The notes below the pieces were generated by a model that did no database searches, had not been told where the DNA came from, and saw only the letters and a list, made by a program, of their open reading frames with translations. The position numbers and the translations under genes were made by a program. From positions 107,667 to 171,666 of the forward strand of contig VCMS01000218.1 of assembly GCA_022539475.1 (NCBI GenBank): DNA of 64,000 nucleotides, in the 5' to 3' direction. The DNA comes from Gracilaria domingensis (lineage: Eukaryota > Rhodophyta > Florideophyceae > Gracilariales > Gracilariaceae). Shown here piece after piece: positions 36,821 to 54,466 of the stretch (its first letter is position 1; every line of letters begins with the position of its first letter).

Positions 36821-37726
36821 TCATCTTGACAAAGAGAGATGCGCTCTGTGGCGCCATTTGAAAAGGAGATTTACAAAGTTATCGATAAGAAGGGACCGCG
36901 TGGTGTCCGAAGTGCGGCGAAAAGAAATGTAAAGAGAATGACCGAAGAGCAATTCGATTGCTGCAACTCTAGTTAGGCGCGGAGAGAGCTGGACCGGATC
37001 AACACGCAGAACGATCCGCAGAATGGATTTTATGATCTCATATTCGTCTTCTTGCACAGCCGTTCGGTGCTGAACCGTCTGTTTCGACGCAGAAGCTCTC
37101 CTTGTGTCCACAGTTTGATTCATCCCAAGAGATGCCCTTCTCGACCCAGTGGGCTTCGTAGCGGAGGTAGACTTTGTTTGACCTGTCCGCTTCGTAGCTG
37201 GGGATGCTCTCGTCTCCATAGACCGCTTCGTAACAGACGACGGACCTGCCCGCGCAGGTGGTACTGATGCGCTACCTCTCGGTGTTGATGAACTTTGAAT
37301 TGGCTCCGTGCGGCTTGTCAGCGTCATCATCTCACTCATAGCGCTCACCGTTCGTCGCCTGGACGCCGGATTGCTGACTGCCACCGGTTCTATCATTTTC
37401 TCATCCCAAGGAGCGGCCGTCCGGAGATCCTGGATGTATTGTGGAAGATCCAGGCCCTCCACCCGGTAAGAGTAGAACGTCTGACCGCTTCGACTGATGA
37501 GAATATTATGAACCACCACAAGACCTGGGTCTAATTGCTTCCCGTTCAACTCGCGGCGTAAAACACTTCCAATTCCATGCAACAACGCTTCCCCGACTAT
37601 CACCTTTCTTTCGTTCTCAATATCCATCTGGAGAGAAACCCGCATTCCACCTTGCAATGATCGAGTGCTCCGCCGAGTGCGAGGAGTCACGCTTTGCGGA
37701 CGTTTTCGAACACGAGGTGGCTTCAT
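36821..37726 (-). CDS. Paralogue of the 50.6-kb Ser/Thr-rich basic protein (partial module copy)
   Basis: Close to 50554-51250 at DNA and protein level: RKR.QSVTPRTRRSTR, DLPQYIQDLRTAAPWDEKM, repeated SATKPT/SPATKRT/MNQT blocks. Here the reading frame is intact where the other copy lost one C. The last ~75 residues (RVDPVQLSPRLTRVAAIELL...) differ completely and form an ordinary-looking helical tail. The ParB and oxygenase parts are absent. Mid-protein A/T/S/K-rich repeats suggest disorder and nucleic-acid or chromatin contact. No enzymatic function is recognised. Confidence 0.6.
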   Translation of the reverse strand: MKPPRVRKRPQSVTPRTRRSTRSLQGGMRVSLQMDIENERKVIVGEALLHGIGSVLRRELNGKQLDPGLVVVHNILISRSGQTFYSYRVEGLDLPQYIQDLRTAAPWDEKMIEPVAVSNPASRRRTVSAMSEMMTLTSRTEPIQSSSTPRGSASVPPARAGPSSVTKRSMETRASPATKRTGQTKSTSATKPTGSRRASLGMNQTVDTRRASASKQTVQHRTAVQEDEYEIIKSILRIVLRVDPVQLSPRLTRVAAIELLFGHSLYISFRRTSDTTRSLLIDNFVNLLFKWRHRAHLSLSR

Positions 37727-38000
37727 GTTGAACGGCTATTGCAGTGAAAGATGTATATGAACAATACGCTCGCTCTGGACGATACAACAACGAAGGCGAA
37801 CCTTTAAATGGCGATTTACGCTGGGCACCCCCGCTTTCGGCAGCTCCTCCCAGCGTACTGCCAGTCTCGTCCCTGTCCTGTCCGTGGCCGCTCGCACGTT
37901 GATTGTACGCTTTAGAGTTGTGGAGTTCGCGCAATGAAGACTCACGCGAGCAATGGTCGCGCTCTCTAATCGTGCTCTTCAAATCGTCTGTCTCTTGCAG
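37727..38000 (-). promoter_or_regulatory. Promoter-containing 5' flank, copy of the 50.3-kb region
   Basis: Reads outward from the ATG at 37726. It includes the ~75-bp block with TTTAAATGGCGA..TACGCTGGGCACCCCC also found at 49157-49235 and, inverted, 50395-50490. Homology to 50.3 kb stops near 38000. Confidence 0.6.
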
Positions 38001-38612
38001 ATGCTAGTTTTTGGCGAGGGTCGTCCAGAAATTGGCAAGGGTCGTCCAGTAAATTTTTTGAAAAAATATCGAGATCAATTATTTCAAAATTTGGAGATAA
38101 TTGCTTGGGTCGTCCAGAATCGCTGTGCAGTAAATACTGGTGGGTTTTCCACTCGTGCTAGTTCTTTAGTCGAGGGCTACCTGAACTGTATTTCGCGAAG
38201 TCTAGGTTCAGTTTCCATTAAGGTGCACATTACACGATACCTTCTGCGGAATGATACCCTGCAACGCATGGAATACTGGTGCTAGTACAGATGATGCCCA
38301 TTATGAAATCATACCGTTTTATTCGTATCTATTCTTCTATCGACCGCTTTTGCTAACCACTACTTCTCTATATTACTGGTACCATTTCCCCATGATGAAG
38401 CGGGTGTAGGCGCAATCTGCGGCAGACGCCGCAGACTGCACCTGCACCAAATTGCGCTATCGGTAGAACACATACGCACTCCGAGAGGATGAGGCGCGAA
38501 GCGCCTCATCCTCTCCGTTCCTCATGTAGGGAACCATGCCCAGATGCATGGTTCCCTACTTGAGGAACCTGCACCTGCAACTCGTGAGCTACCTCCGCAT
38601 CAAAAGTCATTT
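38001..38612. repeat. Intergenic DNA with hairpin cluster
   Basis: There is no gene. Three palindromes occur at 38417-38434 (CTGCGGCAGACGCCGCAG), 38483-38515 (15-bp perfect arms around GAA) and 38517-38568 (about 22-bp arms). The last two lie back to back one base apart. Confidence 0.6.
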
Positions 38613-39505
38613 ACCTGTACACGCAAGCAGAAAGTATCCATAAGCTAGTCAATGCTCCGTTGGACACATTTGAAATGCGATGGAACGTACCATTGATAAA
38701 GCAAAACAGAAACGTTGCGCTAGAAAAGTCGAGGGACCTAGTAACTTGCAAAATGAAGAAGAAGAAGGAAAGGGATCGGTTAGATTACCAGCCCACCATC
38801 ATCGTAAAGCGCGAAAAGGTGTCGAAGCGAGAACTCACAAGCAAGGACACCAAGAATGCCCATGCAGCAAACATACCGCAAGATGCGATAAACGAGAGAG
38901 CAGCCTCTGTCCCAACCAAGTACCAGAATCGCCTATCCCGAACAGCCAGAGATCGATCTTGAGAGACGAAATGAAATTGGTCTTTTACCTCTATACGCAA
39001 GCAGAAAGTATCCATATGTTAGTCAATGCTCCGTTGGATACAGTTGAAATGCGATAGAACGTACCATTGATAAGAGCAAAACAGAAACGTTGCGCTAGGA
39101 AAGTCGAGGGACCTAGTAACTCGCAAACGGAAGAAGAAGCAGGAAAGGGATCGGTTAGATTACCAGCCCACCATCATCGTAAAGCGCGAAAAGGTGTCGA
39201 AGCGAGAACTCACAAGCAAGGACACCAAGAATGCCCATGCAGCAAACATACCGCAAGATGCGATTAACGAGAGAGCAGCCTATGTCCCAACCAAGTACCA
39301 GAATCGCCTATTCCGAACAGCCAGAGATCGATCTTGAGAGACGAAATGAAATTGGTCGTTTTCCTGTATACGCAAGCAGAAAGTATCCATAAGTTAGTCA
39401 ATGCTCCGTTGGATACAGTTGAAATGCGATAGAACGTACCATTGATAAGAGCAAAACAGAAACGTTGCGCTAGAAAAGTCGAGGGACCTAGTAACTCGCA
39501 AAAGT
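38613..39505 (+). repeat. Tandem repeat, about 375-bp unit, 2.4 copies
   Basis: Units start at 38613, 38987 and 39362 with the motif TATACGCAAGCAGAAAGTA and match closely throughout; the third is cut at 39505. Each unit stays open in two plus frames (for example KKKERDRLDYQPTIIVKREK or HHHRKARKGVEARTHKQGHQ), but the frames change between units. I treat it as a satellite or array of a decayed gene piece rather than a CDS. Confidence 0.75.
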
Positions 39506-40181
39506 AACCCAAAGCCGTTTTCTTGCCGTGTACATGTCGCAGAGCGCGAAGAGACGTGGTGAGGATTGGTTAGTTTAGAACAAAGATACGTAGAAGGAAA
39601 ATGAAGCACGTACGAAAAGACTGCACGGAATACATCCGTGAGATACGGATGCTGTCCGCTTTATGGAGGCGTCCGACGAGGGCGGAGAAAGAGAATGAGG
39701 TACGCTTCATGTCCGCTTAATGGAATCCATTCTCAGCACGCTACTTCGTAATCCGTCGTACTTTTTTCCGCCCTCGCACTTCGTAGCGAGTGCGAGGGCG
39801 GAAAAAGGTACGACGGAGCGGAGTACAACGCGAGGATGGCACGGATCACGACGGTAACAAAAGGTCGGACGTCGGACGGGCGGCGGCGGCGGCGGAGGGA
39901 AGAGATTTATTTTTCTGTGCGAGATTGGACAAGTGTACAGCGTACAACGTTGGGAAACCGCAGGTTTATAACCAGTGGTAGATAATACGAGAAGTACACA
40001 ATTGTGTTGAGGTCGACGTGTACCTACGTTCCTTTTTGAACGAAAGCACGTGATTTAAACTCAAAATATATTCTCCGTTCTGAGCAAGACGTCGATATTG
40101 AGTGTCGCTCGACCTCCTTCTCCCTTCGGACGCCCTTCCCTTGCAGTCTTTGTCGTCGTTTCTCGTTCATTTCTTCTTCCC
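39506..40181. other. Upstream region of the Plavaka-like gene, with large hairpin
   Basis: No gene. A hairpin at 39752-39817 has ~29-bp arms (TCCGTCGTAC...TTCCGCCCTCGCACT) around TCGTAGCG. Related CCGCTT.ATGGA motifs precede it (39655-39725). It may be a transposon end. Confidence 0.5.
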
Positions 40182-40733
40182 ATGGTCTACTACTGTACAC
40201 ATAAGAAGCGTGGGTGCCCCTTCGTTACTCGCCGAGGAGTCTTATCTCTTCAACAGCATGTCAACCATTGCCCGTTTCGTCTGAAAGCAGCGCTGGAAGA
40301 CGACAATAGCCGGCCCATTCGGAGAAGCAAGCGTCTCAAGCTTTCCGCGCCCGCGCCCGCATCTTCCGAAACGGTCACTGCCCCTTGTCGCCTTCCCGAG
40401 CCTCCAGTGTCCGAGGACATCGTCGACCCCACTCCGTGCGCCCCTCCTATTCCGGACACTTCGCATTGTGTTTCTCCTTCCCCGGGTCCCGCGTCATTAG
40501 AGCGAGAACACGGAAGCAGTTCCCGCCCAGTGCCTTCTGAGGAGGCCCTTGGTGATTTGCATATGGATTATCTCACGGTTTGTCTGGCTTCAGTAGCTTC
40601 CAACCTTGGTCATCGTGAGGCGGACGAGCTAATTGGGCTACTTCGGGACCCGCGATTCTCGCAAAAGCGATTCAACGAGACCATATCAAGTTCCAAGCGC
40701 TGTACAGAACTGAGGAACGCCATTTTCGAATGA
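40182..40733 (+). CDS. N-terminal part of Plavaka/KDZ-like transposase (zinc-finger region)
   Basis: I prefer the Met at 40182. The protein begins with a Cys/His motif (YYCTHKKRGCPF, then LQQHVNHCPF), like the N-terminal finger of Plavaka proteins, followed by a Pro/Ser-rich disordered stretch and a short helical block. The ORF stops at 40733, and the ORFs 40730-40987 and 40912-43359 continue in other frames. The two may be joined by a frameshift or short intron; a GTAAGT lies at 40781. Confidence 0.55.
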   Translation: MVYYCTHKKRGCPFVTRRGVLSLQQHVNHCPFRLKAALEDDNSRPIRRSKRLKLSAPAPASSETVTAPCRLPEPPVSEDIVDPTPCAPPIPDTSHCVSPSPGPASLEREHGSSSRPVPSEEALGDLHMDYLTVCLASVASNLGHREADELIGLLRDPRFSQKRFNETISSSKRCTELRNAIFE

Positions 40734-40911
40734 TACGCCTCAAAAACGGTTTCAATCGAACAACTTTCTCGCCAGAAGGATGTAAGTTCAGCGCCACCCT
40801 CTACACGAGAGAACCGGTTCAGACACTTGCGAAACAGCTCCAGTTGGCTAAAACGAAAAAACCTTCTTCCATCCTATATCTCAGACCCACTCCACGTAAA
40901 TATCTCACCCC

Positions 40912-43359
40912 ATGTCCGGCTCTCTCGCAAGAGACGCCACCTCAAAACTTAAGGAAATGGTCATGGGCTCTTTGGATAGTACAATAGTGTGGTACTCCCA
41001 AGAAATAAGTTACAGTGAATCTTTCGTAGGTCTTCTGCAGGTATACACCGAGAAGTATTCAACAACTCTAAAGCAAACATCGGTTACCGCCTATCCTCTT
41101 CACCTCATATTTCTCAACTTCTCCGACGAGCTTCGCCGTAAGTGTATCCGTGATGACCTCACAGTAGTGGCATACTTCCCTACCACACTGATCGAGGTTT
41201 CCGCATCTGAAGCAGACGCAATGCCATTCGTTTCTAGCAAGTCTCTACGCGAGTCCAGGATGCAAATCCTTCAAGAATCTCTTCGTCAATTCCTGGAGCC
41301 CATTCTAAATCTCACGCAGAAAGGTTTTCAGTTCATCGGGGAAGACAAACTAAGTCGAGTGTGCCATCCTCTGCTTGCAAGTTATTGTGCGGATATTTCT
41401 GAGGCTAAGGACATTCTGTCCATTCTTCATGGGACCAAAACGGAAAGCCCGTGTCATAGATGCAAAGCCCCTCGCTCATCTTTATGCAGTCCTATTCCCA
41501 CCTCATTCAATGGACGTTCTCAAAAGCACACGAAAAGCATCCGAAAAACATACACAGCTATCTTGCAACATGCACAGAAAGACGAGGCGGAAAGACATCC
41601 ACGTCGTGCGAGGGAGAGGAGATCTCAAGCGGATACTCTGATGCGTTCAAATTCCATATCTCTCATTCCTTCGTTCCTCGAAACTTCCGTAAGCCTTGGA
41701 ATGATCCCGGGATTGTCTCCATACAGTCTGTTCTCATTCGAACCATTACACAACTTGCATCTCGGCATCTCAAAGCTTATTAAAACGGCCACAATCGAGA
41801 GACTGCAGTCGGACACCCTGTGCACCACAATAGGAACATCTGCATCGCGTTCATTTCGAACGATACGCACCCAACTCCTCAACCATGCAAACGCAATTCT
41901 AGCTGCCATAGAACGCGATTCTCCTGCCAAAGGTTTACATATCGATTTCTCCACGCAGGAGAAAGGCAAATCTTTGAATGGTATCTTCACGAAAGACGGT
42001 CTCCGTGGAATGCTGGAGGCCAAAAACTACAAAGCACTTGACATGGTCTTTCCCTTCATAGGAGCATTCTTTGACATATGCTGTGGAGAACAGGACGTTG
42101 CCCCAATCACAACCGTTTTCTCTCAGTACTCGGACTTGCTCTCGACCTTATTCAGATACAATCGTGACCCGTATTGGACTGAAAGCTCTCTCCTGTGTCT
42201 TAGTTCGGAGATTGAAGCCTTCAAGCGTTCCGCAACAAAGACTCTGGCGGATTTTCATCCCTCCAGACTGGGAACTCTGAAGTTTCATCTTCTCGATCAT
42301 CTCGTGGACGATATTCGCCGTCTGGGAAGTATCAAGTACTACGACGCAGGCATATACGAACATGCACACCTGCTATTTAAAAGACACTACAAAAAGACGT
42401 CCAGAAGAACAGCAACGGCTGTGGAGGAGACTATTCGCTCCATTGAGCACGGACATGTTAGAAAGCAATGGAATGGCAATACTCCTTACCAGCGTAATCC
42501 AGGTTTACCAGGAACTTCCACACAGCTTCCTCGGTTTGCAATGAGAGGGCGTTCATTCACTTTACGAGCTCTTCAACATTGTGTTTCAAGTATGTCCAGT
42601 TCAAAAACATGGACTGCTGTTAGAGAAATGTTCTCAAGTACGGACACAAGGTCGATTCTTGATCAAATTGGTGAACAGGTCCTTCCTCCTTTCCTCAGTC
42701 TCGTGAAAGAAACACTGGATGAGCACTCTATTACATACTTCCCAGAAAAGACAAGGATAACTCTGGTGAATTCGGCCGTCGTGAAAGGCGGTTTCGTTCC
42801 GACTCTTGAACACTTCGATTCGTCTTCTAAGGCACTTAAGCTGGGACGACCCAAATACCCCATCATCCAACGTGTCTTCGCTTCTCCAGCATTTGGTCCC
42901 AGTAGAAAGCCAAAGTTTTCCACTGTATTGGTAAGCGGAGAAGATTCAGAGACTTGGGTTGCCCAGGTAGTCGCTCTGATTCGAATATCTCTCCTTGATT
43001 CTGCACTTACCGCACCAGAGGTGGCATTCGTCCGGTATTTCGAGGTTTTACCCCCCGCAACAAACATCGGCCACATATTGAAATGCATATCTTTACGGTG
43101 GGCTACAAACGATGAAAAGAACCACACTCTTCCGTTCCCTCGTCATTCCAAAGCGGAGACTATCGTAGAGTTAACTCCTTGGTACGGGATGGTTCCGGCT
43201 TCTGCACTACAGGGAACTGTCCATGTTGTTCGATCAAACTACCCTGCTCCACCTTTTTGTCCTCCACTTCAATGGTTTCAACACCGATTCTACATCAATC
43301 GATTCTATCATGATTCAGATGAAGGACCAACTGAGCACGTTGATCTTGTACAGCCTTAA
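40912..43359 (+). CDS. Plavaka/KDZ-like DNA transposase, main part
   Basis: The 815-aa ORF shows the arrangement of Plavaka-type CMC transposases: a CHRCKAPRS motif, a helical segment, then SFEPLHNLHLGISK in the position of the D..H...LG catalytic-region motif. A LGTLKFHLLDH block (KxHxxxH-like) comes further on, and the C-terminal beta-rich tail ends FYINRFYHD. The family moves DNA by cut and paste. The expected acidic residue before LHNLH is Glu here, which may matter. It ends 76 bp from the oppositely directed gene at 43436, so the two are tightly packed. Family assignment is from overall pattern, not a search. Confidence 0.55.
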   Translation: MSGSLARDATSKLKEMVMGSLDSTIVWYSQEISYSESFVGLLQVYTEKYSTTLKQTSVTAYPLHLIFLNFSDELRRKCIRDDLTVVAYFPTTLIEVSASEADAMPFVSSKSLRESRMQILQESLRQFLEPILNLTQKGFQFIGEDKLSRVCHPLLASYCADISEAKDILSILHGTKTESPCHRCKAPRSSLCSPIPTSFNGRSQKHTKSIRKTYTAILQHAQKDEAERHPRRARERRSQADTLMRSNSISLIPSFLETSVSLGMIPGLSPYSLFSFEPLHNLHLGISKLIKTATIERLQSDTLCTTIGTSASRSFRTIRTQLLNHANAILAAIERDSPAKGLHIDFSTQEKGKSLNGIFTKDGLRGMLEAKNYKALDMVFPFIGAFFDICCGEQDVAPITTVFSQYSDLLSTLFRYNRDPYWTESSLLCLSSEIEAFKRSATKTLADFHPSRLGTLKFHLLDHLVDDIRRLGSIKYYDAGIYEHAHLLFKRHYKKTSRRTATAVEETIRSIEHGHVRKQWNGNTPYQRNPGLPGTSTQLPRFAMRGRSFTLRALQHCVSSMSSSKTWTAVREMFSSTDTRSILDQIGEQVLPPFLSLVKETLDEHSITYFPEKTRITLVNSAVVKGGFVPTLEHFDSSSKALKLGRPKYPIIQRVFASPAFGPSRKPKFSTVLVSGEDSETWVAQVVALIRISLLDSALTAPEVAFVRYFEVLPPATNIGHILKCISLRWATNDEKNHTLPFPRHSKAETIVELTPWYGMVPASALQGTVHVVRSNYPAPPFCPPLQWFQHRFYINRFYHDSDEGPTEHVDLVQP

Positions 43360-43435
43360 ACATTAAGGGCTCCATCCTCTACATGTTCACCTTGTGGTGC
43401 CTTTTCTTGTGATCCTGTGTTACTTCCGAAATCGT

Positions 43436-45747
43436 TCATGTCCATTTCCTTGAACTCCATATCCCCTTCCTCGCATTCACCGACGAAGCAATCGCTAATA
43501 ACCCCAATCTTCGGCTCACACTGTCAATAAAAAATTGTTCTTCCACAGTGAGGTAAAGTCTTCCGTTCGACGGCATTCGATATCCAAATGTAGCCTCTCT
43601 CATGTCATTACCAAGAACCTTAGTCCAATCTTCCGTTGTCGTTCCAAAATTATGAAACTCGCTGGAATTGGTCCTCAAGACACGTTGCCTAACATCCCCC
43701 AGAACATTCTTTAAACACAGAGGTAGCAGTTCGGCAAACTTCTTTGTAAACAGTTTCTGTCTCTGGCCACCCCTTGACACATCCGTACTTAGAAGGCTCA
43801 CAACCGTCAACACCCAAGCGTCCAAACGTGCGAGCAACAGTATTGTGCCATCTAAAAAGGTGCCCGTATCCTTGTCTTCCACATCATACCCAATAAACTC
43901 CTTCAGCACTTGTACCCCGACACGGTTTCGGAAGAACAAGTCTTGATCTTCCGTCGGCATATCCTCCACATTGTCCGCATTGGAGTACTTTAGACGAACA
44001 AATGGGGCTTTTCTCCACCATGAAGTGTTCGGTACACCATTTTCGTCAAGACGCAGTATGTTCTCCTGCGCTTCCTTCAACTGCATTGTGAGTTCGTCAG
44101 CATTCTCTTCTACCAGCTTTGTTCTTCTCCAAATCAGATCGTACCCCAGGAGCAGAAATAGTTTATCCCTCGTATTTCTCTTACGAACGCCCACGACGTC
44201 ACTCATGGTCTGCCGCATTCTCTGCCTAAGGCACATATCTGCACAAAGTTCAGTATACACCTGTCGGTAAGAGATGCTTTTCTAATACCTTCCCAGCTCA
44301 ACTCCTTCAACTCGCTTTCAACCATTTTCTTCAGCAAAGCATCTGGCCCCCCCTCTACCGACGGTGTGAACATGCCAAAACTGCCCAAGAGCTCCACGGG
44401 GTTTTTAGGAACCATGTATGAACCACCTTCCTCCGGCTCAATAAGCCCTTCCCCACTCTCAGTTGCGTCTTCCACCTTCTCGGCACGGTTACCCCAATTT
44501 CGGGTGAGCGACTCACCTTCGAGCCATAGCGCACTTGTTCTCTCCTTGCCCACGTCAGCATGTTGTGTACACTGCTCGAGCAACCCCTCGAAACTCGTCG
44601 CACACCTCAATTTTATGCTTCTTTCGACCTGTCTGCCCAGGTTCACCAGCACGTGTACTCCTATCTCCCTCCTGTTTCAGTGCCCCTCTTAGCCCTTCAA
44701 TGACTAGATCCTTCTCTTCAAGCCTCTTTTTCAAAGCCGTACTCTGCTCTTGGGCGACCTTCACTAGAATTCCCCGAACCATCAAGTCCTCTTGTAGCGT
44801 CTTAACCTTTTCTTTCAAGCAATTCAGTTCATTTAAAAGATCAGGTCTGTTCATAGAGCTTGAATTCACACCAGTTTGGATATCTTCCGTTATTTCCCTA
44901 GCTTCTTCGGCGACAGGCCCCGGTAATGCCGCAGGATTCGGTGTTATTTCGTTATCGGAACTATCTCATGTGCCATAACCTTAGACACGACAGGCTGCAG
45001 GCGTTCTGTGTCCACCCTTGGTACGGCTCTGAGCTCCAACTCCCGTCTCTGTCCTCCTTCATGATATCGTATATCAGATGAATTGGGCCTCGTACGAGCT
45101 GAAACGGCCCCCGCTCTGGAAAGAGGGGAAGGTCGAAAAGTAACTCGTCTATCAGTTGTCTCTCGATTTCTTATTGTCTTTCTCCCTTGTCCGGACCCAT
45201 TGCGAGGCATGATACGATTCATAGCGGCCCCAGTTCTAGAAGACAGGGATGGACGTGACGATCTTAATATACTAGGGCTCTCACGACTTCTCGTCATTGT
45301 CCCTTGTTGTCCAGATCCACTGGGCGGCGTAACCCGCGCCCCAGTAGCTCCGGTCTTCGATATCGGCCGGGGACATGAAGGTTTTGGTGTCATACGAACC
45401 TCTTCGGTTCCAGTTGTCATGCCCTCCTGTCCTGACCCGCTGGGCCGAGTTACCTCATCTTCTTGAGGAGCAGAGACAGATGCACGATTTGCACTATCGG
45501 CAGTTGACGGCACGACATCGTTCGCTGATCCACGAATTCTTGACGCAATCCCGGAAGACGCTCCGCTGCGAGATGGGCGAGAGAGTCCTGTAGAAGGACG
45601 CCCACTGACTCTCTCCTTCGTCGAGGACGACTTCCGTTTAGGAAGTGCGGTGCTTGTAGCCTGATTCGTATCATCCGATGCTCTTCTCTTCTTCTGTCCA
45701 CTCTTGTTCCGCTGCGTACTATTTCGCTTTCTCGGCGTTATACCCAT
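43436..45747 (-). CDS. Basic, repeat-rich coiled-coil protein of the modification cluster (frameshifted)
   Basis: Four minus ORFs (44944-45747, 44555-44869, 44203-44652, 43436-44260) read as one ~765-aa protein if three single-base shifts near 44960, 44610 and 44255 are allowed. Each new frame continues without a stop at the switch. Residues 1-230 are Lys/Arg/Ser-rich with repeats of R.SGSGQ.G..T..RE. Next comes a coiled coil (LNELNCLKEKVKTLQEDL, then ALKKRLEEKDLVIEGL) and an alpha-helical C-terminal domain (LDAWVLTVVSLLS, RLYLTVEEQFFIDSVSRRLG). No known family. A basic tail plus coiled coil suggests a DNA-binding structural partner for the neighbouring enzymes. Confidence 0.5.
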
Positions 45748-45784: not shown

Positions 45785-45813
45785 GGGGAGGGGGGAGGGG
45801 GTGGGGGGGGGGT
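45785..45813 (+). repeat. Guanine-rich tract, potential G-quadruplex
   Basis: Runs of 4, 6, 5 and 10 G separated by single bases, just upstream of the minus-strand gene start at 45747 and past the methyltransferase stop. Confidence 0.7.
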
Positions 45814-45994: not shown

Positions 45995-48574
45995 CTATTG
46001 CTCCAATGTCAGAGCCCAGTCCCAGGCGTACTGCTCTCCGTAGTTGAAATACAACTCTTCGCCCCTCTCAATATCTCTTACTGCTCTACAACGAAGTAGA
46101 GCATAGTTAGAAAGGTCTGACTTGAACTGTATCACGGACTTCGCTTCCACCACCTGCACATTGGCACTTCGAGTCCTGTTTGACCGGGGCTCCGATAAAT
46201 CGGGATCCCCGGCATGATATCCGGCGTCGTTAATGTAGCCCCCGATACAAAAAGGCGCCGGGACAATGTAGACTTCGCTCTCCTTTCTATCCTGAGCCTG
46301 TCCTGGTCTGTTCCTCAGGTGCAGAAACTCCGTACCAGTCACAGTGACCATCATAGAAAACAACTTGTACCGCACTGGAGTTGCTCCGAGACAGCCACTT
46401 CCATACGTTAAGTGTCTTTCCTTCCGGTTCGTCAGATCCGTGTATACCAAAGTTCCATAGAAATGACAGATAGTTTCCCCAGCCAATATCTTATGTTCCG
46501 TGAACACCCCCATACCAGCACGGGGATGTCGAATCTTAGAAGATGCTATATGTAAGCGATAGCGATTGGCTTCAACAGTCAACAGCATATGCATATCCAT
46601 AAGATTCAGAGCTCCTCGGTACTTCCCCTCCCAAAGATCTACAGTACGCTGTCCACACTTCTCGACAAAGTCCCAGTCCTTCCAGTATCTTCCTAGGAAC
46701 TGAGTAATATGTCCAGGCATCACTTGGTACTGGGGGTAACCAAATGGAGCCTCCCATTCAAGCCGACCTCGGTCCCGATGTGGAACCCGTTCATAGGTCG
46801 TTGAAGCCGCATCCACCACCTCCTGTTCAACCAGGATGTCATTCTTCCCCCCGCGAATAACTTCGGCCATAAGAGTCGTTAGATGGTGCTTCGCATGGCT
46901 GAAACATGGCCTATTCTTCTCGCACCCCAAGAACTTCCTATGCTTTGTCAGCGATAGGCACGCCATACCCGTAGAAAAAGTTCCCGCGAACATGTCCATG
47001 ACAAGATCACCCGGTCTTGTGAAGCGACATATCAACTCCTTCATCAACTCCCTCGACTTCTGCTCCGGTCTTATGTACTGCCCACCTGGTACTGAACTAC
47101 CTGGCTCATGTACCTTCCATGTCAACCACTCCCCCGCCCTCGGTTTGGGCACCCGGTCAATTACATTCCTGTTAGCCGGGAAAGTGGAAGGAATGAAATT
47201 GTTCTCCTCAAATGGAGTAAGACTGGCTTCCTCCGATGGTCGCAATCCACGCTTCACCCCATGAACGGCGTACTCCGTTACGGGCTGTATCCCAAACTTC
47301 CGTGGATTCCCTCCAACATTACTGCGATCCCGGATGAACACCAGTGGATTCGCATCCACTTTAAACGAAGGCATGAGTTCTGGTTTACCTTCGCTTCCAG
47401 CTTCATCTTTCGTACTCGCCGTTTCCGAAAGTATCCTGTGCCACACATGAAACTGTGCCATGGCACAGAATATAATGAAGTGCCCACCTGACCGAAGCGC
47501 GGAACTTATTAAGTCAGCCGTACGGATCATGTCTTCCTCACTGAAGACATCGTGACCACTATTCCGTTTGTTCCTCTTCCTTCGAGTGTTAAAGGGAGGG
47601 TCTGTTAGGACAAGCTGTGCCTCACCCCATAAAATCTCACTCTGATTCACAAACGTTTCGTGTGTGTGCCTCAGGTCCTTCATGTCACAGTTGTACGCTA
47701 CAAAGTGTGACTTTCTCATCCCCTTCCACACCTTGTCCATATTCATTCGAAGGAGACTGGATATCCCCTTCATGGGCGGCTCAATACCAGTCTTTTGGAT
47801 GTTGTAACCGGCAACCCGAGATTCATGCTCCGCAAGATTCACCGGCTTCTCGAACTCGTCGCTATCGGAGCTCACGAGGTTCATATACTCTCGACGAGGT
47901 GGGGGTGGGGCAGACTTGGTCGAAGAAGGTTCGGCATTACCGGAAGTTTTAGGGGTTTTCGTCAGTTCAATATCAGGTTTCGCGTGAATGCCGACATGGA
48001 ACCCTGCCGCATGACGCATATCCTGTATCGGTTTCCATAGCAACTCCGAAAACTTCTGAAATCGAGCAGGCAACTCACCGGAGTCAGAGCTAGATACGGT
48101 ATCCATCCGTATCTCCGAAAACTCTATCCAGTTCCTCATCTGATCAACCCGTAAGCTATAGAGGCTATCGTGGGTGCATATGGTTTCGAGGTCTGTCAAA
48201 AACTCCTTAGCCAGTATTCGCAGGTTTGTATCGCATTCATCACTCAAGGTCTCCACCGATCCACTAGTACTGCTCTGTGGCACATCCTTTGTGTTGAATC
48301 GAGTACTCTGGCTCGGCGGGGCATAACCAGACTCTCGTATCTCTAGCGCTGTATACTTCAAAGTCTGCATATTCATNNNNNNNNNNNNNNNNNNNNNNNN
48401 NNNNNNNNNNNNNNNNNNNNNNNNNNNNNNNNNNACTCTATGCCCATACGACCTCACTGATAGCGAATCCCAGTCGATCACAGTTGTCTTTGGAAACGAC
48501 GTAAAAGTGGGTATGTACACAGATGGTGCATGGTTCACTTTTCGTTTCTTTTTCGGTTGTTTCTTCTTCATCAT
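45995..48574 (-). CDS. DNA amino-methyltransferase (beta-class N6A/N4C) fused to SET domain
   Basis: The basic N-terminus (KKKQPKKKRKV) looks like a nuclear-localisation signal. After ~58 unknown bases and a disordered part comes a DNA methyltransferase. Catalytic motif IV is LTDPPFN (about residue 321-327), followed ~200 residues later by GDLVMDMFAGTFST (motif I, SAM binding) and KFLGCEKN. That order is the beta class, as in CcrM/HinfI enzymes; DPPF favours N6-adenine over N4-cytosine. The C-terminal ~190 residues are a SET domain: GMGVFTEHKILAGETI, then GGYINDAG, then NVQVVEA, and GEELYFNYGEQYAWDW. SET domains methylate lysines. A single chain with both activities is unusual. The frame across the N-gap is arbitrary, so the first 65 residues are uncertain. 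Confidence 0.8.
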   Translation of the reverse strand: MMKKKQPKKKRKVNHAPSVYIPTFTSFPKTTVIDWDSLSVRSYGHRXXXXXXXXXXXXXXXXXXXXMNMQTLKYTALEIRESGYAPPSQSTRFNTKDVPQSSTSGSVETLSDECDTNLRILAKEFLTDLETICTHDSLYSLRVDQMRNWIEFSEIRMDTVSSSDSGELPARFQKFSELLWKPIQDMRHAAGFHVGIHAKPDIELTKTPKTSGNAEPSSTKSAPPPPRREYMNLVSSDSDEFEKPVNLAEHESRVAGYNIQKTGIEPPMKGISSLLRMNMDKVWKGMRKSHFVAYNCDMKDLRHTHETFVNQSEILWGEAQLVLTDPPFNTRRKRNKRNSGHDVFSEEDMIRTADLISSALRSGGHFIIFCAMAQFHVWHRILSETASTKDEAGSEGKPELMPSFKVDANPLVFIRDRSNVGGNPRKFGIQPVTEYAVHGVKRGLRPSEEASLTPFEENNFIPSTFPANRNVIDRVPKPRAGEWLTWKVHEPGSSVPGGQYIRPEQKSRELMKELICRFTRPGDLVMDMFAGTFSTGMACLSLTKHRKFLGCEKNRPCFSHAKHHLTTLMAEVIRGGKNDILVEQEVVDAASTTYERVPHRDRGRLEWEAPFGYPQYQVMPGHITQFLGRYWKDWDFVEKCGQRTVDLWEGKYRGALNLMDMHMLLTVEANRYRLHIASSKIRHPRAGMGVFTEHKILAGETICHFYGTLVYTDLTNRKERHLTYGSGCLGATPVRYKLFSMMVTVTGTEFLHLRNRPGQAQDRKESEVYIVPAPFCIGGYINDAGYHAGDPDLSEPRSNRTRSANVQVVEAKSVIQFKSDLSNYALLRCRAVRDIERGEELYFNYGEQYAWDWALTLEQ
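48377..48434. other. Assembly gap, 58 N
   Basis: Unknown bases inside the methyltransferase N-terminal region. The true length is not shown. Confidence 0.95.
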
Positions 48575-48674
48575 TCGGATGTTGTCGTTCTCTCCATTAT
48601 GTGGCCGAGGTATGATAAGTATATAACGACCTCAAATGGGTTCACAGCTGTTGGTGGGATGAACACTGTCGTCT

Positions 48675-49127
48675 TCAGAACTGCTTTCTCCTGGTCATGA
48701 AATAACCAACCAGGCATCGCACCGGTAGGTATATACCCATATCCATAGAGAGAAGGAAAAAATCGCGCAGTCTCTGGTCCTCATCCCCGTCCTTCTTGTC
48801 AAGAAGCTTCGTTACAAGATATCGCTGTTCCACAGGTTTGTTATTCACAACACTCTTTCGCAGCTGTTGCAGTGTCAAGTTCTGCAGGTTCTTGGAGTTA
48901 GTGGCCTCCTCAAACATCTTCCTTGCCTCCGGAATATCCTTATAGTTCTCGGCGCAGAACTCTATTAACCCTCTAAACCCCACGTCCCGTGGCCGATCAG
49001 GGCCTCCATCGCTGTTTGCCAAAGCATCGCGAAGAACCAAGAAAAGTCTGACATATGCATGGAACGCCGGAGGCGGAGCACTCATGTCGATAGGATGTAT
49101 CTCCTCTCCAACATCGGTGGAATCCAT
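48675..49127 (-). CDS. Small helical protein, first gene of the leftward set
   Basis: The ATG at 49127 gives 150 aa with no repeats, a Leu-rich helical C-terminus (LRDFFLLSMDMGIYL) and an acidic, Pro-containing start. It lies immediately downstream of the shared promoter block and 100 bp before the methyltransferase gene. No family is recognised. Expression with the methyltransferase is likely from the layout. Confidence 0.55.
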   Translation of the reverse strand: MDSTDVGEEIHPIDMSAPPPAFHAYVRLFLVLRDALANSDGGPDRPRDVGFRGLIEFCAENYKDIPEARKMFEEATNSKNLQNLTLQQLRKSVVNNKPVEQRYLVTKLLDKKDGDEDQRLRDFFLLSMDMGIYLPVRCLVGYFMTRRKQF

Positions 49128-49139
49128 CGCTTCAGCGCA

Positions 49140-49240
49140 AACAACGGAGGCGAGCCTTTAAATGGCGACTTACGCTGGGCACCCCCGCTTTCGGCAGCTC
49201 CTCCCAGCGCACTGCCAGTCTCGTCCGTGTCCGTGTCCGC
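49140..49240 (-). promoter_or_regulatory. Shared promoter block, leftward copy
   Basis: Directly upstream of the ATG at 49127. Contains CTTTAAATGGCGACTTACG (a TATA-like TTTAAA), then GCTGGGCACCCCCGCTTTCG and GCAGCTCCTCCCAGCGCACT. The same block lies upstream of 50554 (inverted) and 37726. Confidence 0.65.
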
Positions 49241-49399
49241 TCGGAGCGATAGCGTCGCGTGTCGGAGCGATAGCGTCGCGTGTCGGCCACGTCGCGATTC
49301 GGAGCTATTGCAACGGTCCCGTATTGTGCTAAAAGTCGCGGATCAAGTGGGTGTGAAGCGCTAGTTTTCTCTAGTTTGATATATGTGTACGGCGTGTGC

Positions 49400-50195
49400 A
49401 GCGAAATCACTGCCGGAAGTGCCGGGAGGAGTGTTTTGGGAGGTCTCCGGAAGGCGCCGGAATGTGACCAGAACGTGCCCGCGGGCGGGGGGGTCCGGTC
49501 GTGTTAGGGTAGGTACCCTAACACGACCGGACCCCCCCGCCCGCGGGCATAAAATCGCACATTTTTCAAAAAATCGTCCAAAATGTGCCCGCGGGCGGGG
49601 GGTCCAGTCGTGTTAGGGTACCTACCCTAACACGACCGACCCCCCCCGCCCGCGGGCACGTTTTGGACGATTTTTTGCACCCTCCGGAGACCTCCCAAAA
49701 CACTCCTCCCGGCACTTCTTGTACCCACTGCGTCACCTCAGTGAACCATCCCGGAAATTAGGGAGTGTCTGGAGGGTGGAGAAGACGGGATGGTCACCTC
49801 AGTGCACCATCCCGGAAATTAGGGAGTGTCTGGAGGGTGAAGATGACGGGATGGTGCACTAAGGTGACGCAGTGGGTACAGGAAGTGCCGGGAGGAGTGT
49901 TTTGGGAGGTCTCCGGAGGGTGCCAGAATGTGGCCAGAACGTGCCCGCGGGCGGGGGGGGTCGGTCGTGTTAGGGTACCTACCCTAACACGACCGACCCC
50001 CCCCCCCCGCCCGCGGGCACGTTTTGGGCGATTTTTTGAAAAATGTGCGATTTTATGCCCGCGGGCGGGGGGTCCGGTCGTGTTAGGGTACCTACCCTAA
50101 CACGACCGACCCCCCCCGCCCGCGGGCATAAAATCGCAACATTCCGGTGCCTTCCCGGGACCTCCCAAAACACGCCGCCGCGCAGTGATTTCGCT
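49400..50195. mobile_element. Foldback element of nested palindromes, 796 bp
   Basis: Outer ends AGCGAAATCACTGC are inverted copies. Each arm (~340 bp) holds two palindromes of 73-95 bp: 49476-49549, 49570-49676, 49939-50021 and 50046-50138. All share the core CCCGCGGGCGGGG..TCGTGTTAGGGTA and its complement. The two arms are themselves inverted around a 120-bp centre containing two direct repeats (CCATCCCGGAAATTAGGGAG). No ORF is credible. It separates the two divergent promoter copies. Confidence 0.85.
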
Positions 50196-50297
50196 ACACC
50201 CGGCCGCCGGTACGTTGGCGCCGCTGTCCACGTGTATTGGCGGGAGTAGGCTGTACATGGAAGTGAATGAGTGTACTCTTGACTACTATGCAAAGCA

Positions 50298-50553
50298 TTT
50301 GAAGAGCATGATTAGAGAACGCGACCATTGCTCGCGTGAGTCATCATTGCGCGAACTCCACGACTCTAAAGCGTACAATCAGCGTGCGAGCGGCCACGGA
50401 CAGGACACGGACGAGACTGGCAGTGCGCTGGGAGGAGCTGCCGAAAGCGGGGGTGCCCAGCGTAAGTCGCCTTTTAAAGGCTCGCCTCCGTTGTTGTATC
50501 GTCCGAGCGAGCGTATTGTTGATATACACCTTTCACTGCAATAGCTGTTCAAC
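50298..50553 (+). promoter_or_regulatory. Shared promoter block, rightward copy
   Basis: Inverted relative to 49140-49240. GTCGCCTTTTAAAGG supplies the TATA-like box ~80 bp before the ATG at 50554. Its upstream part (GAGCATGATTAGAGAACGCG) matches the 37.9-kb copy but not the 49.2-kb one. Confidence 0.65.
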
Positions 50554-51467
50554 ATGAAGCCAACTCGTGTTCGAAAGCGTACGCAAAGCGTGACTCCTCG
50601 CACTCGGCGGAGCACTCGATTATTGCAAGGTGGAATGCGGGTTTCTCTGCAGATGGATATTGAGGATGAAGGAAAGGTGATAGTCGGGGAAGCGTTGTTG
50701 CATGGAATTGGAAGTGTTCTACGCCGCGAGTTGCACGGGAAGCAATTGGACCAGGTCTTGTGGTGGTTCATAATATTCTCATCAGTCGAAGCGGTCAGAC
50801 GTTCTACCCTTACCGGGCGGAGGGCCTGGATCTTCCACAATATATCCAGGATCTCCGGACGGCCGCTCCTTGGGATGAGAAAATGATGGAACCGGTGGCA
50901 GCCAGCATTCCGGCGTCGAAGCGAGGAACGGTGAGCGCTATGAGTGAGGTGATGACGCCGACAAGCCGCACGGAGCCAATTCGAAGTTCATCAACACCGA
51001 GAGGTAGCGCATCAGTAGCACCTCCGCGGGCAGGTCCGTCGTCTATTACGAAGCGGTCTATGGAGACGAGAGCATCCCCAGCTACGAAGCGGACAGGTCA
51101 AACAAAGTCTACCTCCGCTACGAAGCCCACTGCGTCGAAAAGGGCTTCTCCTGCGATGAATCAGACCGTCGACACAAGGGGAACTTCTGCGTCGAAACAG
51201 ACGGTTCAGCAGGGGACGGCTGTGCAAGAGGAGGAAGATGAGATCATGAAAGGTCCCCTTCCAGACGCGGATGCGCAATCCGCGCAAGGAGCTGGTCCAT
51301 CTGTACCCCAAACTGCACCAGAAACTGCGGAGCAGCAGGACGATGACGTTGTGCTTCTGTCCGCAAGAATGGCACGTTCAAGTGTTCTGGCGAGCGGTCT
51401 GGAACACAAGGGACACCTACTCGGAGCAAGACGTACAGACGAATTCGTCAGAAGGTACCAAAGGTGA
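50554..51467 (+). CDS. Basic Ser/Thr-rich N-terminal region of the rightward gene (one-base frameshift)
   Basis: MKPTRVRKRTQSVTPRTRR begins the protein. At ~50750 the frame breaks because GACCAGG here corresponds to GACCCAGG in the intact paralogue at 37.5 kb, and reading resumes in the ORF 50760-51467 (DLPQYIQDLRTAAPWDEKM). The middle has tandem A/T/S/P/K repeats (SPATKRT, SATKPT, SPAMNQT). In a third frame (YRRIRQKVPKVNLNQYRM) the sequence runs straight into the ParB-like ORF, so the two ORFs are probably one protein. Confidence 0.6.
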
Positions 51468-53635
51468 ACCTCAATCAGTACCGGATGGTTGTTGTTACTG
51501 TTGACATCACTCTGGTGGACACTCCGCCCAATTTACTCCGTGGAGTAAGTAAACGCCACGTTGAAGCCCTTGTGAAGAGTATGGAGGAGCGGGGGATATT
51601 GCAGTCGATGGGTTCTCCAGTGGTGGCCTTACAAGATGCTACTACGGGAGAGAGGGATACTGACAAGGGACGCCTAACGAAGAAGTGCTTCATTGTAGAT
51701 GGTTTGCATCGTCTGAAAGCTATACAATATTTGGCAGCGACTGGTGCACCGAAGTGGAAGCGATTAGCCAAGTTTTGGCGTTGCAATCTGCTGATACGAA
51801 GAGATGGGAGGCCCATTGGGATGAAGGAATTGTTATGTGTTGCTTCGTACCTCAATGAGTCGACGAGTACCATGCGAAGGATGATGTTTGCAGACAAGAT
51901 ACACTCTATAGTTAGTGTGGTCGCCATTCTAATTGAAGATGTTGAGGGGGTGACGCCGGCAGACGTGGATCCTGCAGAAGTGACAGAAGTGTTGAAGGAG
52001 AGCCAACTGATTGGGACTGTGCAAGAGCGTCAGTACCTGAGATATGCCAATGTCGCCCTGCAACTCATGTCTCGTGAGGGAATGCTGGCCCATTTCGAGG
52101 ATATATGTGAGACTGTGAGTGACATAGGTCTCACACATCTGTCCCATACTCCGCTATATGTTTTGGATGCCGAGGAGTTTTCCTTCATTCTTGATTGTCT
52201 TCAGATGTTTCTATTGAAGGGCAAGTCGACGAAGACAAAGCAATGGAAAAGCTTTGAGGAGGTTCGAGGTTTCTTTTATGATAGAGCAGTGTCTCTGTTC
52301 CGCGCGGCTAGAGCAGTGAGGAATGAACTGAACGAGGAAGAGTCCATGGAAGTGTTCCTGAAACGCGAAGTCAGTCTTTCTGCTCCATCGAATGAAGATG
52401 ACGTTGAAGACCCAGACAACAACGCAGCTGTGTATCAGTTCCTTTTGGGACAAGTTGTGAACTTCAACACATTGCCGCGTGTTCGGAGCAGGACGAACTC
52501 AATTAGAACTGCCACGACTTCCGTTCAGAATCGATTGCGGACGATGCTCAAGGTAATTCCGCCCCCCGCACCAGTGAAGCAGTCCGTGACGAAGAGGAGG
52601 ACTCCCGCTGCTGCTGCTGCAACATCTGCCAGTGAAGAAGGGGAGCCGCGAAGAAGTGCACGAGAACGGGCGCAGGTGAGTTATAGGGAAATTGAGCACG
52701 GCCGAAATCGAGGTGCCATAGAAGTTCTGGATAGCTCTGAAGAAGAACAGCGGGCTCCGCCGAGGAAGAAACGGAGAAAGACTTTCACACAACAGATGAG
52801 ATCTACTCTGAACAGCATGACACCGGATGACCTGATGTCTCAACTAAATGAACATGTGCTGAGAGGAAGGTCGATGAAGGTTCAGTTCGTGGCATTGGGA
52901 GAGGGAGCGAATGCAGAGAACGCAGGCAGTTCTGCATTTGTGGATGACGATGAGCTTCTTTCTGTGACAGTTCCACGGGTTGTCACCGTCGAGAAAGATG
53001 CTGCGCCAGACGATCAGCAAGAGACAGGTGGGGGGTCATTTGATGACGAGTTACCTACAGCTCTTCCGGAATCTGAGGAGCACGGACTTGTTCGAGGTGA
53101 CCCATATGATGGCCCACTGAACCCATCATGGTGCGGGTATGCCAGGCTGAGACCGCAGGAATGGCAAGGGAAGAACGTAATTGAGCACAAGGACCCCTGG
53201 CTCAGAGTCATTCACTTGCCGAAGGGACATAGGTCGGAGCTGCTAAGTGTCTCGAATCTCAGAGATGTACACCATCTTGTCTTTTGGCACGCTGCAAGGG
53301 CTGAACATCGCCTACGGGCGGAGACATTTGGTATGCAGTATCCTCGTACTCGACCGACAGGTATGGATGATGAAGAGGTGCTGTGGGTTGCTGCGAAGGA
53401 GCATGACGAATTTGGGCAAATGTTCTTCGCCCGAATGCAAGCTGAGCTAAGGCAGAATGGATATTGCGTGCTTGATGGTTTGCGACGGATAATGGTGTCC
53501 CTAAATGGGAGGAGTTGGAAGAAGTTCGGGAGTTCGGAGATGTGTCGGGGAAGTTGGTGGACTTCTTCGAGAATGAGTATGGAGCGATGCCGGATATACG
53601 GAAAGGAGAGGAACAGAAGTCGTTTGTTCAAATAA
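51464..53635 (+). CDS. ParB-like domain protein, N-terminal part of ParB-oxygenase fusion
   Basis: The annotated frame starts at a GTG; a Met lies at 51485, and the natural chain may come from further upstream. Residues 8-90 match the ParB/sulfiredoxin-like fold: VVTVDITLVDTPPN, then HVEALVKSMEERGIL, then CFIVDGLHRLKAIQYL with the DGxHR signature (79-83). ParB-like domains bind DNA and hydrolyse CTP or act as nucleases. A helical region follows, then a basic, Ser-rich linker with acidic patches (EVLDSSEEE, PPRKKRRK). The end (VLDGLRRIMVSLNG) leaves the frame at ~53500, where the oxygenase frame takes over. Confidence 0.65.
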   Translation: MNLNQYRMVVVTVDITLVDTPPNLLRGVSKRHVEALVKSMEERGILQSMGSPVVALQDATTGERDTDKGRLTKKCFIVDGLHRLKAIQYLAATGAPKWKRLAKFWRCNLLIRRDGRPIGMKELLCVASYLNESTSTMRRMMFADKIHSIVSVVAILIEDVEGVTPADVDPAEVTEVLKESQLIGTVQERQYLRYANVALQLMSREGMLAHFEDICETVSDIGLTHLSHTPLYVLDAEEFSFILDCLQMFLLKGKSTKTKQWKSFEEVRGFFYDRAVSLFRAARAVRNELNEEESMEVFLKREVSLSAPSNEDDVEDPDNNAAVYQFLLGQVVNFNTLPRVRSRTNSIRTATTSVQNRLRTMLKVIPPPAPVKQSVTKRRTPAAAAATSASEEGEPRRSARERAQVSYREIEHGRNRGAIEVLDSSEEEQRAPPRKKRRKTFTQQMRSTLNSMTPDDLMSQLNEHVLRGRSMKVQFVALGEGANAENAGSSAFVDDDELLSVTVPRVVTVEKDAAPDDQQETGGGSFDDELPTALPESEEHGLVRGDPYDGPLNPSWCGYARLRPQEWQGKNVIEHKDPWLRVIHLPKGHRSELLSVSNLRDVHHLVFWHAARAEHRLRAETFGMQYPRTRPTGMDDEEVLWVAAKEHDEFGQMFFARMQAELRQNGYCVLDGLRRIMVSLNGRSWKKFGSSEMCRGSWWTSSRMSMERCRIYGKERNRSRLFK

Positions 53636-53943
53636 TCAACGATGATGAAGGATGGAAGGACGGTAGCGATGGACCATTTGAGGGGAGAGTGATGTCGACA
53701 CGTTGGGGTACGGTGGAGAAGCCGGAGGATAATGAGGAGCTCAGGTGGGTTGTAAGGTCGCGTGCTTTACTTGATGTTCGAATGGGTACAATTGCTGCGG
53801 CTTTGGGACTATGGGACAATGAAAGGGAAGCTGTGAAGATGTACACTCCGAAAACTGGTGGTCGATTTCTGGGGACGACGAGAAAGTGCAAGCGCCAGAC
53901 GCTGCACACCGACTCAGTGGTCTGGTTACGAAGGAAACAATGA
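53515..53943 (+). CDS. Oxygenase-like domain, HxD half
   Basis: Continues the ParB-like gene in another frame: VREFGDVSGKLVDFFENEYG, an alpha/beta part (ALLDVRMGTIAAALGLW) and then KRQTLHTDS. HTD (53905-53913) fits the iron-binding His-x-Asp of 2-oxoglutarate/Fe(II) oxygenases. A frameshift near 53.92 kb puts the rest in frame 53858-54466, which then shares the frame of the ParB ORF. Confidence 0.55.
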   Translation: MEEVREFGDVSGKLVDFFENEYGAMPDIRKGEEQKSFVQIINDDEGWKDGSDGPFEGRVMSTRWGTVEKPEDNEELRWVVRSRALLDVRMGTIAAALGLWDNEREAVKMYTPKTGGRFLGTTRKCKRQTLHTDSVVWLRRKQ

Positions 53944-54466
53944 ATACTGGCAACCCCGGATACTTTGTAATGGCCTCTGGAAAGAGGGCTTTCCTCTCTG
54001 GGTGAGCGCTGGAAGCCATCAACTGGTGGGGATGAACAACCAACAGTTGCGAGTGATGTCGGAGGTGTATCCAGCGAAGAAGATAATCATCCCACCGTAC
54101 TCTGTATTCGTGGGCCGTGGTGATGTGACACATGCTGGAGCAAGTGGGAAGGACAAGGTGGATAGGCCCGAGTCTATGGATTTGCTGGTTAGATACCACA
54201 TGTACATGGTACCAGAGGGCTACGCACTACCTGATGCTGTTCATCGGGTGCGGGATTTCCGACCCACGTTTGTCAATGGTGACGAGGAGGAGGAGGCGGA
54301 GGATGAACTGTTGTCCGATAAGGAGGGTGGGGCGGTTGACATGGACGAAGACCAAGTGGTCGTGGAGATTGGTGTGGAAGCGGACGCCGGTAGAACCGAA
54401 GTGCTCGAGAGTAGTAGTGATGACGATTTGCCAATAATGAGGCTGCGAGCGCCTCGAAGTGGATGA
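53858..54466 (+). CDS. Oxygenase-like domain, distal His/Arg half, acidic tail
   Basis: Natural sequence starts at about QWSGYEGNNEYW. Next, KIIIPPYSVFVGRGDVTHAG (His at 54131) and LLVRYHMYMV (Arg near 54192) match the second half of a double-stranded beta-helix, where the third iron ligand His and the 2-oxoglutarate-binding Arg sit. The GDxxHAGA...RxHxY pattern is one I associate with cupin/oxygenase-like proteins of algae, oomycetes and large viruses. The tail is Glu/Asp-rich (EEEEAEDELLSDKEGG). Activity on DNA bases is possible by analogy with TET/JBP but is not shown. Confidence 0.55.
   Translation: MVDFWGRRESASARRCTPTQWSGYEGNNEYWQPRILCNGLWKEGFPLWVSAGSHQLVGMNNQQLRVMSEVYPAKKIIIPPYSVFVGRGDVTHAGASGKDKVDRPESMDLLVRYHMYMVPEGYALPDAVHRVRDFRPTFVNGDEEEEAEDELLSDKEGGAVDMDEDQVVVEIGVEADAGRTEVLESSSDDDLPIMRLRAPRSG

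Follow-up and report, generated by a model that had tools for sequence, protein, structure and literature searches.

Genes and features at the locus

A 64,000-nucleotide stretch of the Gracilaria domingensis genome (assembly GCA_022539475.1, contig VCMS01000218.1, positions 107,667-171,666; G000:C218:107667-171666 in our naming), referred to below as the window, holds a compact set of genes that belongs to a DNA transposon: a transposase of the Plavaka family together with genes for a predicted DNA methyltransferase fused to a SET domain, a protein with ParB-like and oxygenase-like parts, and two relatives of HAD hydrolases. A sequence-only reading of this DNA had proposed a mobile DNA-modification cassette at 36821-54466. 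We searched the same assembly for further copies (77.9 Mb in 680 contigs; the right edge of the window is a contig end), and copies are named here by their contigs, such as C5, C28, and C187. The features, with open reading frame (ORF) lengths taken from less damaged copies where indicated, are as follows.

37985-57094, no strand: window portion of a full-length (about 23 kb) element whose B arm a related element interrupts at 57094
37985-38007, plus strand: A terminus, CGTCTGTCTCTTGCAGATGCTAG
38606-39503, no strand: 375-bp subterminal tandem repeats
40098-43359, plus strand: Plavaka transposase, 1091 residues in one exon in C187; the window frame breaks near 40733
43356-45747, minus strand: ORF2, basic and Ser/Arg-rich, 798 residues in C591 and C187 but frameshifted in the window
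45995-49127, minus strand: DNA methyltransferase-SET fusion, 1045 residues in C465; a frameshift and a 58-N gap in the window
46037-46516, minus strand: SET domain (PF00856, E 1.8e-7 over the full profile length; 2.1e-8 in another copy)
46904-47617, minus strand: N6_N4_Mtase domain with DPPF and FAGT motifs (PF01555, E 2.7e-15; PHROG 67, E 1.2e-23)
49393-50202, no strand: 0.8-kb imperfect palindrome between divergent genes, with four GTGTTAGGGTA/TACCCTAACAC cores
50554-54463, plus strand: ParB-like/2-oxoglutarate (2OG)-oxygenase-like protein; frameshifted in the window, 1295-residue open frame in C28
54731-55639, plus strand: HAD-hydrolase relative with the nucleophilic Asp replaced (PF08282, E 6.6e-5)
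55692-56642, minus strand: HAD hydrolase with the DxDGT motif intact (PF08282, E 1.5e-13)
37028-37984, minus strand: remnant of the ParB-oxygenase promoter and 5' part of another copy, not part of the unit
57095-58112, plus strand: B terminus of a related but diverged element that has inserted into the B arm; outside the unit

A Plavaka transposon with defined ends

The window copy is a DNA transposon with a Plavaka transposase, present in high copy number and nested inside another copy. Its left border is sharp: the element opens at 37985 with CGTCTGTCTCTTGCAG, and seven A ends at six loci begin at the same base beside different 60-bp flanks. The opposite, B terminus, CGTCTGTGTTCTGCAAAG, lies about 3.7 kb past sequence matching window position 57094, and termini of the form CGTCTGT...ACAGACG delimit the element. 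A pattern for both ends, with up to two mismatches allowed, occurs 1156 times in the 78-Mb genome, and the reversed-pattern control not once. Of 100 end places listed among these, 99 were analyzed (one on C29 was left out); they contain 26 facing neighbor pairs less than 25 kb apart, 25 of which combine one A end with one B end. A target-site duplication (TSD) of 2 bp was evident from the flanks of nine of ten A/B pairs, against 1 in 16 expected by chance, and two more pairs that were read whole—C8:197779, with the TSD CA, and C5:513073, with none—bring the count to 10 of 12. An element on C167 that has an A end on both sides carries AT at both flanks. Alignment of copies for shared ends and duplications, proposed at the outset as a check, yields common A and B termini that enclose both the transposase and the modification genes, as the sequence-only reading had supposed.

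The complete arrangement is illustrated by C5:513073-535972, which spans 22.9 kb from A end to B end with both arms present (3082 N in the fetched stretch) and matches window 37985-47183 and then 50139-57094 in order, the window copy being collinear with it. From the A end, the full form runs through the transposase (rightward), ORF2 and the methyltransferase-SET gene (both leftward), the palindromic region, the ParB-oxygenase and pseudoHAD genes (rightward), and the HAD gene and a 367-residue ORF (leftward) to the B end. The unit therefore extends past the right limit first drawn at 54466 to take in the two HAD genes and a terminal arm. In the window, the copy cannot be traced to its own B end: foreign B-end sequence, 76-79% identical to the B ends of other copies, takes over from 57095, and the contig ends at 64000. 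On the left, the second copy of the promoter and N-terminus seen at 36.8-38 kb is genuine, inverted, and 94% identical (37028-37984 against 50297-51251), but it lies outside the unit, which starts at 37985. No such block stands beside other A ends, and insertion of the element into another copy, at the promoter region of its ParB-oxygenase gene, accounts for it.

Own-genome searches with two probes returned 305 candidate matches for window 44000-46000 and 318 for 51600-53600, of which 40 were scored for each probe and are 98-100% identical, and so the repeat is high-copy and recently spread. The family may occupy perhaps 8 Mb of the genome, taking about 578 end pairs at the average of about 13.5 kb found for the 25 pairs, a rough upper figure, since many ends are unpaired.

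Assignment to Plavaka rests on the protein and agrees with the length of the TSDs. The window ORF at 40912-43359 (plus strand) matches PF18759 with E 4.7e-15 and the intact 1091-residue ORF with E 7.2e-19, both over the cut-off, and no other family passes the Pfam cut-off. The “Plavaka/KDZ-like” label first given to this gene stands in its first half: KDZ (Kyakuja, Dileera, and Zisupton) was rejected because Plavaka is the sole family over the cut-off and because a 2-bp TSD is at odds with the 7-8 bp stated for Kyakuja and Zisupton in the source text available. Likewise, the accessible text of Kojima 2025 (PMC12730594) places Plavaka in the CMCT clade, apart from KDZ, and describes Plavaka TSDs of 2 or 3 bp, which the duplications here satisfy, and C(2)C and H(3-4)H motifs that precede the last E. 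Candidates for these motifs, read by eye in the L020 transposase ORF, are CHRC and HLLDH, then YEHAH.

The transposase lies tail to tail with ORF2. The 76-bp gap noted between them is present in the window, but C187 has a 4-nt overlap in its place. The basic coiled-coil protein of the sequence-only reading is indeed encoded leftward; what appeared to be separate ORFs at 43436-45747 are fragments of the single 798-residue ORF2, which has a basic N-terminus and a middle that looks coiled-coil-like by eye, and no Pfam match.

One unit in several sizes

The transposase and modification genes recur as one unit. Among 57 scored methyltransferase matches, 18 have a ParB-oxygenase match that diverges from them at 1.6-3.8 kb (8-kb limit), against a random expectation of 0.19, and in C250 and C361 a nearby ParB-oxygenase match lies in a different arrangement; the ParB-oxygenase list comprised 62 of the 64 rows of one search (two short second pieces omitted) and 4 of 40 of another. 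A second line of evidence comes from 30-base words counted with up to three mismatches: the transposase word occurs 341 times, and the SET and ParB-region words a similar 232 and 226 times, with no occurrence of control words. Because the listed places are perfect matches, the linkage figures drawn from them are lower bounds. Of the 100 SET places listed, 89 lie on contigs C1-C211 and served for the ParB test, and 43 of these have a ParB word at the expected offset (one other is close by in another arrangement); 53 lie on C1-C120 and served for the transposase test, with 35 at the expected offset and one in another arrangement.

That the association is an artefact of assembly, with unrelated repeats joined at scaffold gaps, is an idea prompted by the 58-N gap in the window methyltransferase gene, by runs of N in C5 and C167, and by the truncation of C120b, C246, and C187 where their contigs stop. 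It has been largely refuted and we give it next to no credence: C120a is sequenced through that place, the order recurs in many contigs, and A and B ends pair with TSDs.

Not every copy is complete. Ten of the 25 A/B pairs fall in a 10.2-10.8 kb class, the commonest, and five measure at least 19 kb; four of those five, and none of the 20 shorter pairs, contain a SET or ParB word from the perfect-match lists. The absence of a word from a pair is weak evidence, since C5:513073 has no listed SET word despite matching the window through that region. One 10.3-kb copy, C8:197779, was read whole. Its sequence corresponds to window 37985-42980 and 49281-51475 and to the B arm from just past 57094, and it thus bears two internal deletions, across the second of which an ORF joins the ParB-oxygenase N-terminus to a piece matching pseudoHAD. 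The 10.3-kb form therefore derives from the long form: the shorter form, lacking most modification genes, arose through internal deletion. Co-occurrence of the genes, in short, holds in many copies, and the 10.2-10.8 kb class shows no listed SET or ParB word; full-length copies hold transposase and modification genes alike, and shorter units without the latter coexist with them, rather than the two kinds of gene occurring only in separate units.

A methyltransferase fused to a SET domain

The leftward methyltransferase-SET gene is borne out by both domains, which share one window ORF (45995-48574, minus strand) and recur in the 800-residue main part of the C465 fusion (N6_N4_Mtase, E 2.3e-15; SET, E 1.6e-7). 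The small separate protein once read at 48675-49127 is instead the N-terminus of the 1045-residue fusion, which a frameshift separates from the rest in the window copy; the 58-N gap comes about 0.24 kb further on. The C465 protein carries KKKQPKKKRKV, DPPF, FAGT, and SET motifs. Its PKKKRKV stretch resembles a classical nuclear import signal, and the placing of DPPF before FAGT (FxGxG-type), together with the PF01555 match, fits the beta class of N6/N4 DNA methyltransferases under the motif-order rule for this class. By sequence, the closest solved structures for the methyltransferase part are DpnA and CcrM, and the SET part shows weak similarity to KMT2A (E 0.004). In libraries searched without eukaryotic proteins, the methyltransferase part matches phage and bacterial enzymes; relatives occur in 117 phage records, all below 60% identity and none covering more than 80% of the query. 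Own-genome profile searches with PF12851 and MT-A70 returned nothing, and no control genome gave a match either; a PF00145 search was likewise empty, whereas 10 of 14 control genomes matched, all prokaryotes, and introns may hide a host gene. We read none of these three negatives as evidence of absence.

This phage-like flavor raises the idea that the element is an integrated virus, or a virus-derived giant element using a Plavaka transposase as its integrase. The genes are tightly packed, as the 4-nt overlap illustrates, and the transposase and three large cargo genes are without introns in the less damaged copies; giant repeats of Amoebidium are also intron-poor in the portion of PMC11244446 at hand. 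Still, we consider a viral origin very improbable: no capsid, polymerase, or packaging gene was found among the element ORFs searched, and viral contigs gave no match for the methyltransferase, ParB-oxygenase, transposase, or HAD genes in a search sensitive only to close relatives.

The ParB-like/oxygenase-like gene, the HAD pair, and the palindrome

The rightward gene had been read as a ParB-oxygenase, of which the ORF (51464-53635) and, further on, oxygenase-like motifs are present in the window, albeit in a broken frame. Its ParB-like assignment comes from C28 only, not from the window ORF, as a weak match of residues 305-352 to PHROG 3264 (E 0.0015); neither the whole protein nor the ParB part has a Pfam match, and there is no phage match. 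The last part of C28 is out of frame relative to C81, C25, C167, and C5, which agree on ...HTD...GDVTHAG...VRYHMY, and in three aligned copies H175-T-D177, H251, and R271 are invariant, recalling the HxD...H...R of 2OG-Fe(II) oxygenases. The putative oxygenase identity is drawn from these motifs. Kinship to TET/JBP, suggested by analogy with fungal transposons, was not borne out by Pfam at E<=10 or by any credible Protein Data Bank (PDB) match; a very distant kinship remains conceivable, since PE-type TET/JBP proteins are recognized by structure-based tools alone, according to the accessible part of PMC12730594.

Beyond it lie the two HAD genes, convergent and 48% identical. Motifs of the pair read DIDGT against SVDGT (window and C167) and GNASND against GSALSD in the intact protein and pseudoHAD, respectively, and the 54731-55639 relative is likely a pseudoenzyme, judging by its replaced Asp. 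Some compared copies of the pair have frameshifts, and none has an in-frame stop. The 367-residue ORF of the B arm has no family match.

Between the divergent genes, the palindrome is 82% identical to its own reverse complement, and its single-strand folding energy is -432 kcal/mol against a mean of -165 kcal/mol in 20 shuffles (z -28.8). It is most likely a shared regulatory region, and we treat it as a candidate for that role. The 10.3-kb copy retains a shorter palindrome with three cores, although its methyltransferase-SET gene is gone and its ParB-oxygenase gene mostly so. Rfam gave no match at the gathering score in window 36000-60000. The cores are TTAGGG, but a link to host telomeres is unsupported, as (TTAGGG)4 is absent from the assembly.

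ParB-like, oxygenase-like, and HAD genes standing beside a methyltransferase that matches phage and bacterial enzymes bring to mind phage base hypermodification, in which ParB would target the DNA, the oxygenase would hydroxylate a base, and HAD and methyltransferase would build or protect it. We hold such a pathway to be improbable here, given that no glycosyl- or nucleotidyltransferase appears among the ORFs searched and that the ParB-oxygenase lacks a phage match. We know of no role for a SET domain in base hypermodification, which also counts against it.

What the cargo may do

Taken as a whole, the material is best explained, and somewhat more probably than otherwise, by cargo that writes or edits the element's own chromatin marks against silencing. 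A cut-and-paste mechanism would move the unit, with the transposase binding both ends. The methyltransferase-SET protein would enter the nucleus and methylate DNA adenine and histone lysine on or near the element, while the ParB-like/oxygenase-like protein, expressed from the same divergent promoter, would bind the element and oxidize a base or protein mark. Jointly, the cargo proteins would maintain expression of the element in the face of host silencing and could serve shorter copies in trans. Most likely, then, the cargo supplies the element with chromatin marks of its own and so keeps it expressed, if chemistry and benefit can be judged from domain families; the original suggestion that the enzymes mark or unmark DNA and histones to the benefit of the element is plausible. 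A bolder version can be offered tentatively, and we think it rather unlikely: an epigenetic code of the element's own, comprising a fusion methylating DNA and histones, a ParB-guided oxygenase, and one palindrome with TTAGGG cores, by which full copies would keep themselves and their short offspring awake.

Several observations weigh against the marking of chromatin by a coherent mobile unit. The 10.2-10.8 kb class has no listed SET or ParB word, and so the cargo seems dispensable in cis. Among the 99 end places, 22 further neighbor pairs less than 25 kb apart do not face each other; C5:513073 and C9:35606 have no TSD; and C120a, C250, and C361 are rearranged. At least one stop interrupts 36 of the 57 methyltransferase matches, which points to many dead copies. 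The oxygenase region has no Pfam match at E<=10, Tet_JBP included, and no credible PDB sequence match, and AlphaFold models are uninformative (pLDDT, the per-residue confidence, 27.7 for the oxygenase part and 37.9 for the ParB part). Finally, the ratio of nonsynonymous to synonymous substitution (dN/dS; each gene estimated from 4 to 16 closely related copies or pieces, intervals by codon bootstrap, codons near gaps masked) has an interval spanning 1 for the methyltransferase domain alone (0.43, 0.19-1.64), the ParB-like part (0.34, 0.10-1.11), and the oxygenase part (0.48, 0.24-1.13).

Some of these points would equally suit passengers, that is, captured host, bacterial, or viral genes that give the element nothing. 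Short derivatives are commoner than any other size class in the set of 25 pairs, several window genes are frameshifted in addition to the stops just described, and dN/dS is 1.00 (0.62-1.87) for the ParB-oxygenase N-terminus and 0.68 for both HAD (0.38-1.33) and the 367-residue ORF (0.41-1.19). Yet intervals lie below 1 for the SET domain (0.29, 0.13-0.73), the whole methyltransferase-SET gene (0.48, 0.28-0.91), the ParB-oxygenase linker (0.47, 0.25-0.87), and pseudoHAD (0.39, 0.19-0.93); 21 of the 57 methyltransferase matches are free of stops, nine of them inside a 1055-residue open frame; and the same arrangement persists in dozens of copies. We view useless cargo as rather unlikely. Values for the methyltransferase-SET N-terminus (0.28, 0.08-0.85), transposase (0.46, 0.33-0.64), and ORF2 (0.73, 0.50-1.15) complete the series, in which the figures support function for the transposase and the methyltransferase-SET fusion and are only suggestive for the remaining genes.

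If the domains are a true guide to enzyme activity, the element would be a selfish one bearing a fusion of DNA and histone methyltransferases, with an oxygenase-like partner, and transposons could then introduce new base marks to a eukaryotic lineage. Copies with and without cargo share one genome, a natural experiment, and hundreds of similar copies of several sizes make a compact system for testing whether such marks aid escape from silencing.

Elsewhere in the window

Other features lie outside the element. On the minus strand, an NB-ARC ORF adjoins a WD40-repeat ORF at 9143-12690, as would be seen if an intron or frameshift divided an Apaf-1-like gene; endonuclease and reverse transcriptase ORFs at 16024-20099 are pieces resembling a long interspersed nuclear element (LINE); and reverse transcriptase, integrase, and a sub-threshold chromodomain match at 25096-30181 are pieces of a long terminal repeat (LTR) retrotransposon. 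Two inverted 0.74-kb repeats (21976-22714 and 32851-33590) are 91% identical. At 60390-63446 (plus strand), a 1018-residue mucin-like Ser/Pro-rich ORF has a C-terminus that looks vWA-like by eye and no Pfam match over the cut-off.

Comparison with known systems

The literature searched, which omitted most subscription papers, yielded no account of this enzyme set that we recognized, which does not prove that none exists. Among partial relatives, eukaryotic mobile elements encoding a DNA methyltransferase are known from DIRS retrotransposons with Dam-like adenine methylases and from dinoflagellate and charophyte retrotransposons with DNMT (the available text of PMC5890265); theirs are Dam-like or C5 enzymes, whereas the enzyme here is of DpnA/CcrM type and fused to SET. 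Oomycete HarbingerS and MuDR elements, as cited in the accessible part of PMC12730594, are DNA transposons with a captured SET histone methyltransferase, but they belong to other transposase superfamilies, and that part mentions no SET-fused DNA methyltransferase. Terminal sequences set the element apart as well: the same text gives TGT..ACA for PlavakaA and CATCA..TGATG for PlavakaB, and CGTCTGT..ACAGACG is neither.

The closest known systems are the TET-carrying fungal Plavaka and the Plavaka giant repeats of Amoebidium. The latter, in the portion of PMC11244446 available, comprise long clusters of intron-poor genes with many tyrosine recombinase genes, and no mention of ParB or adenine is made there, nor any description of ends or TSDs. 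The TET-carrying Plavaka of Agaricales, as far as the available text of PMC12730594 describes them, differ from the element here in a TET/JBP dioxygenase cargo, with no ParB, methyltransferase-SET, or HAD mentioned. They share with it a Plavaka transposase, a short TSD, and a base-modifying enzyme proposed to act against silencing, and in that text Kojima argues the same anti-silencing role, experimentally unvalidated, for transposon TET/JBP proteins.

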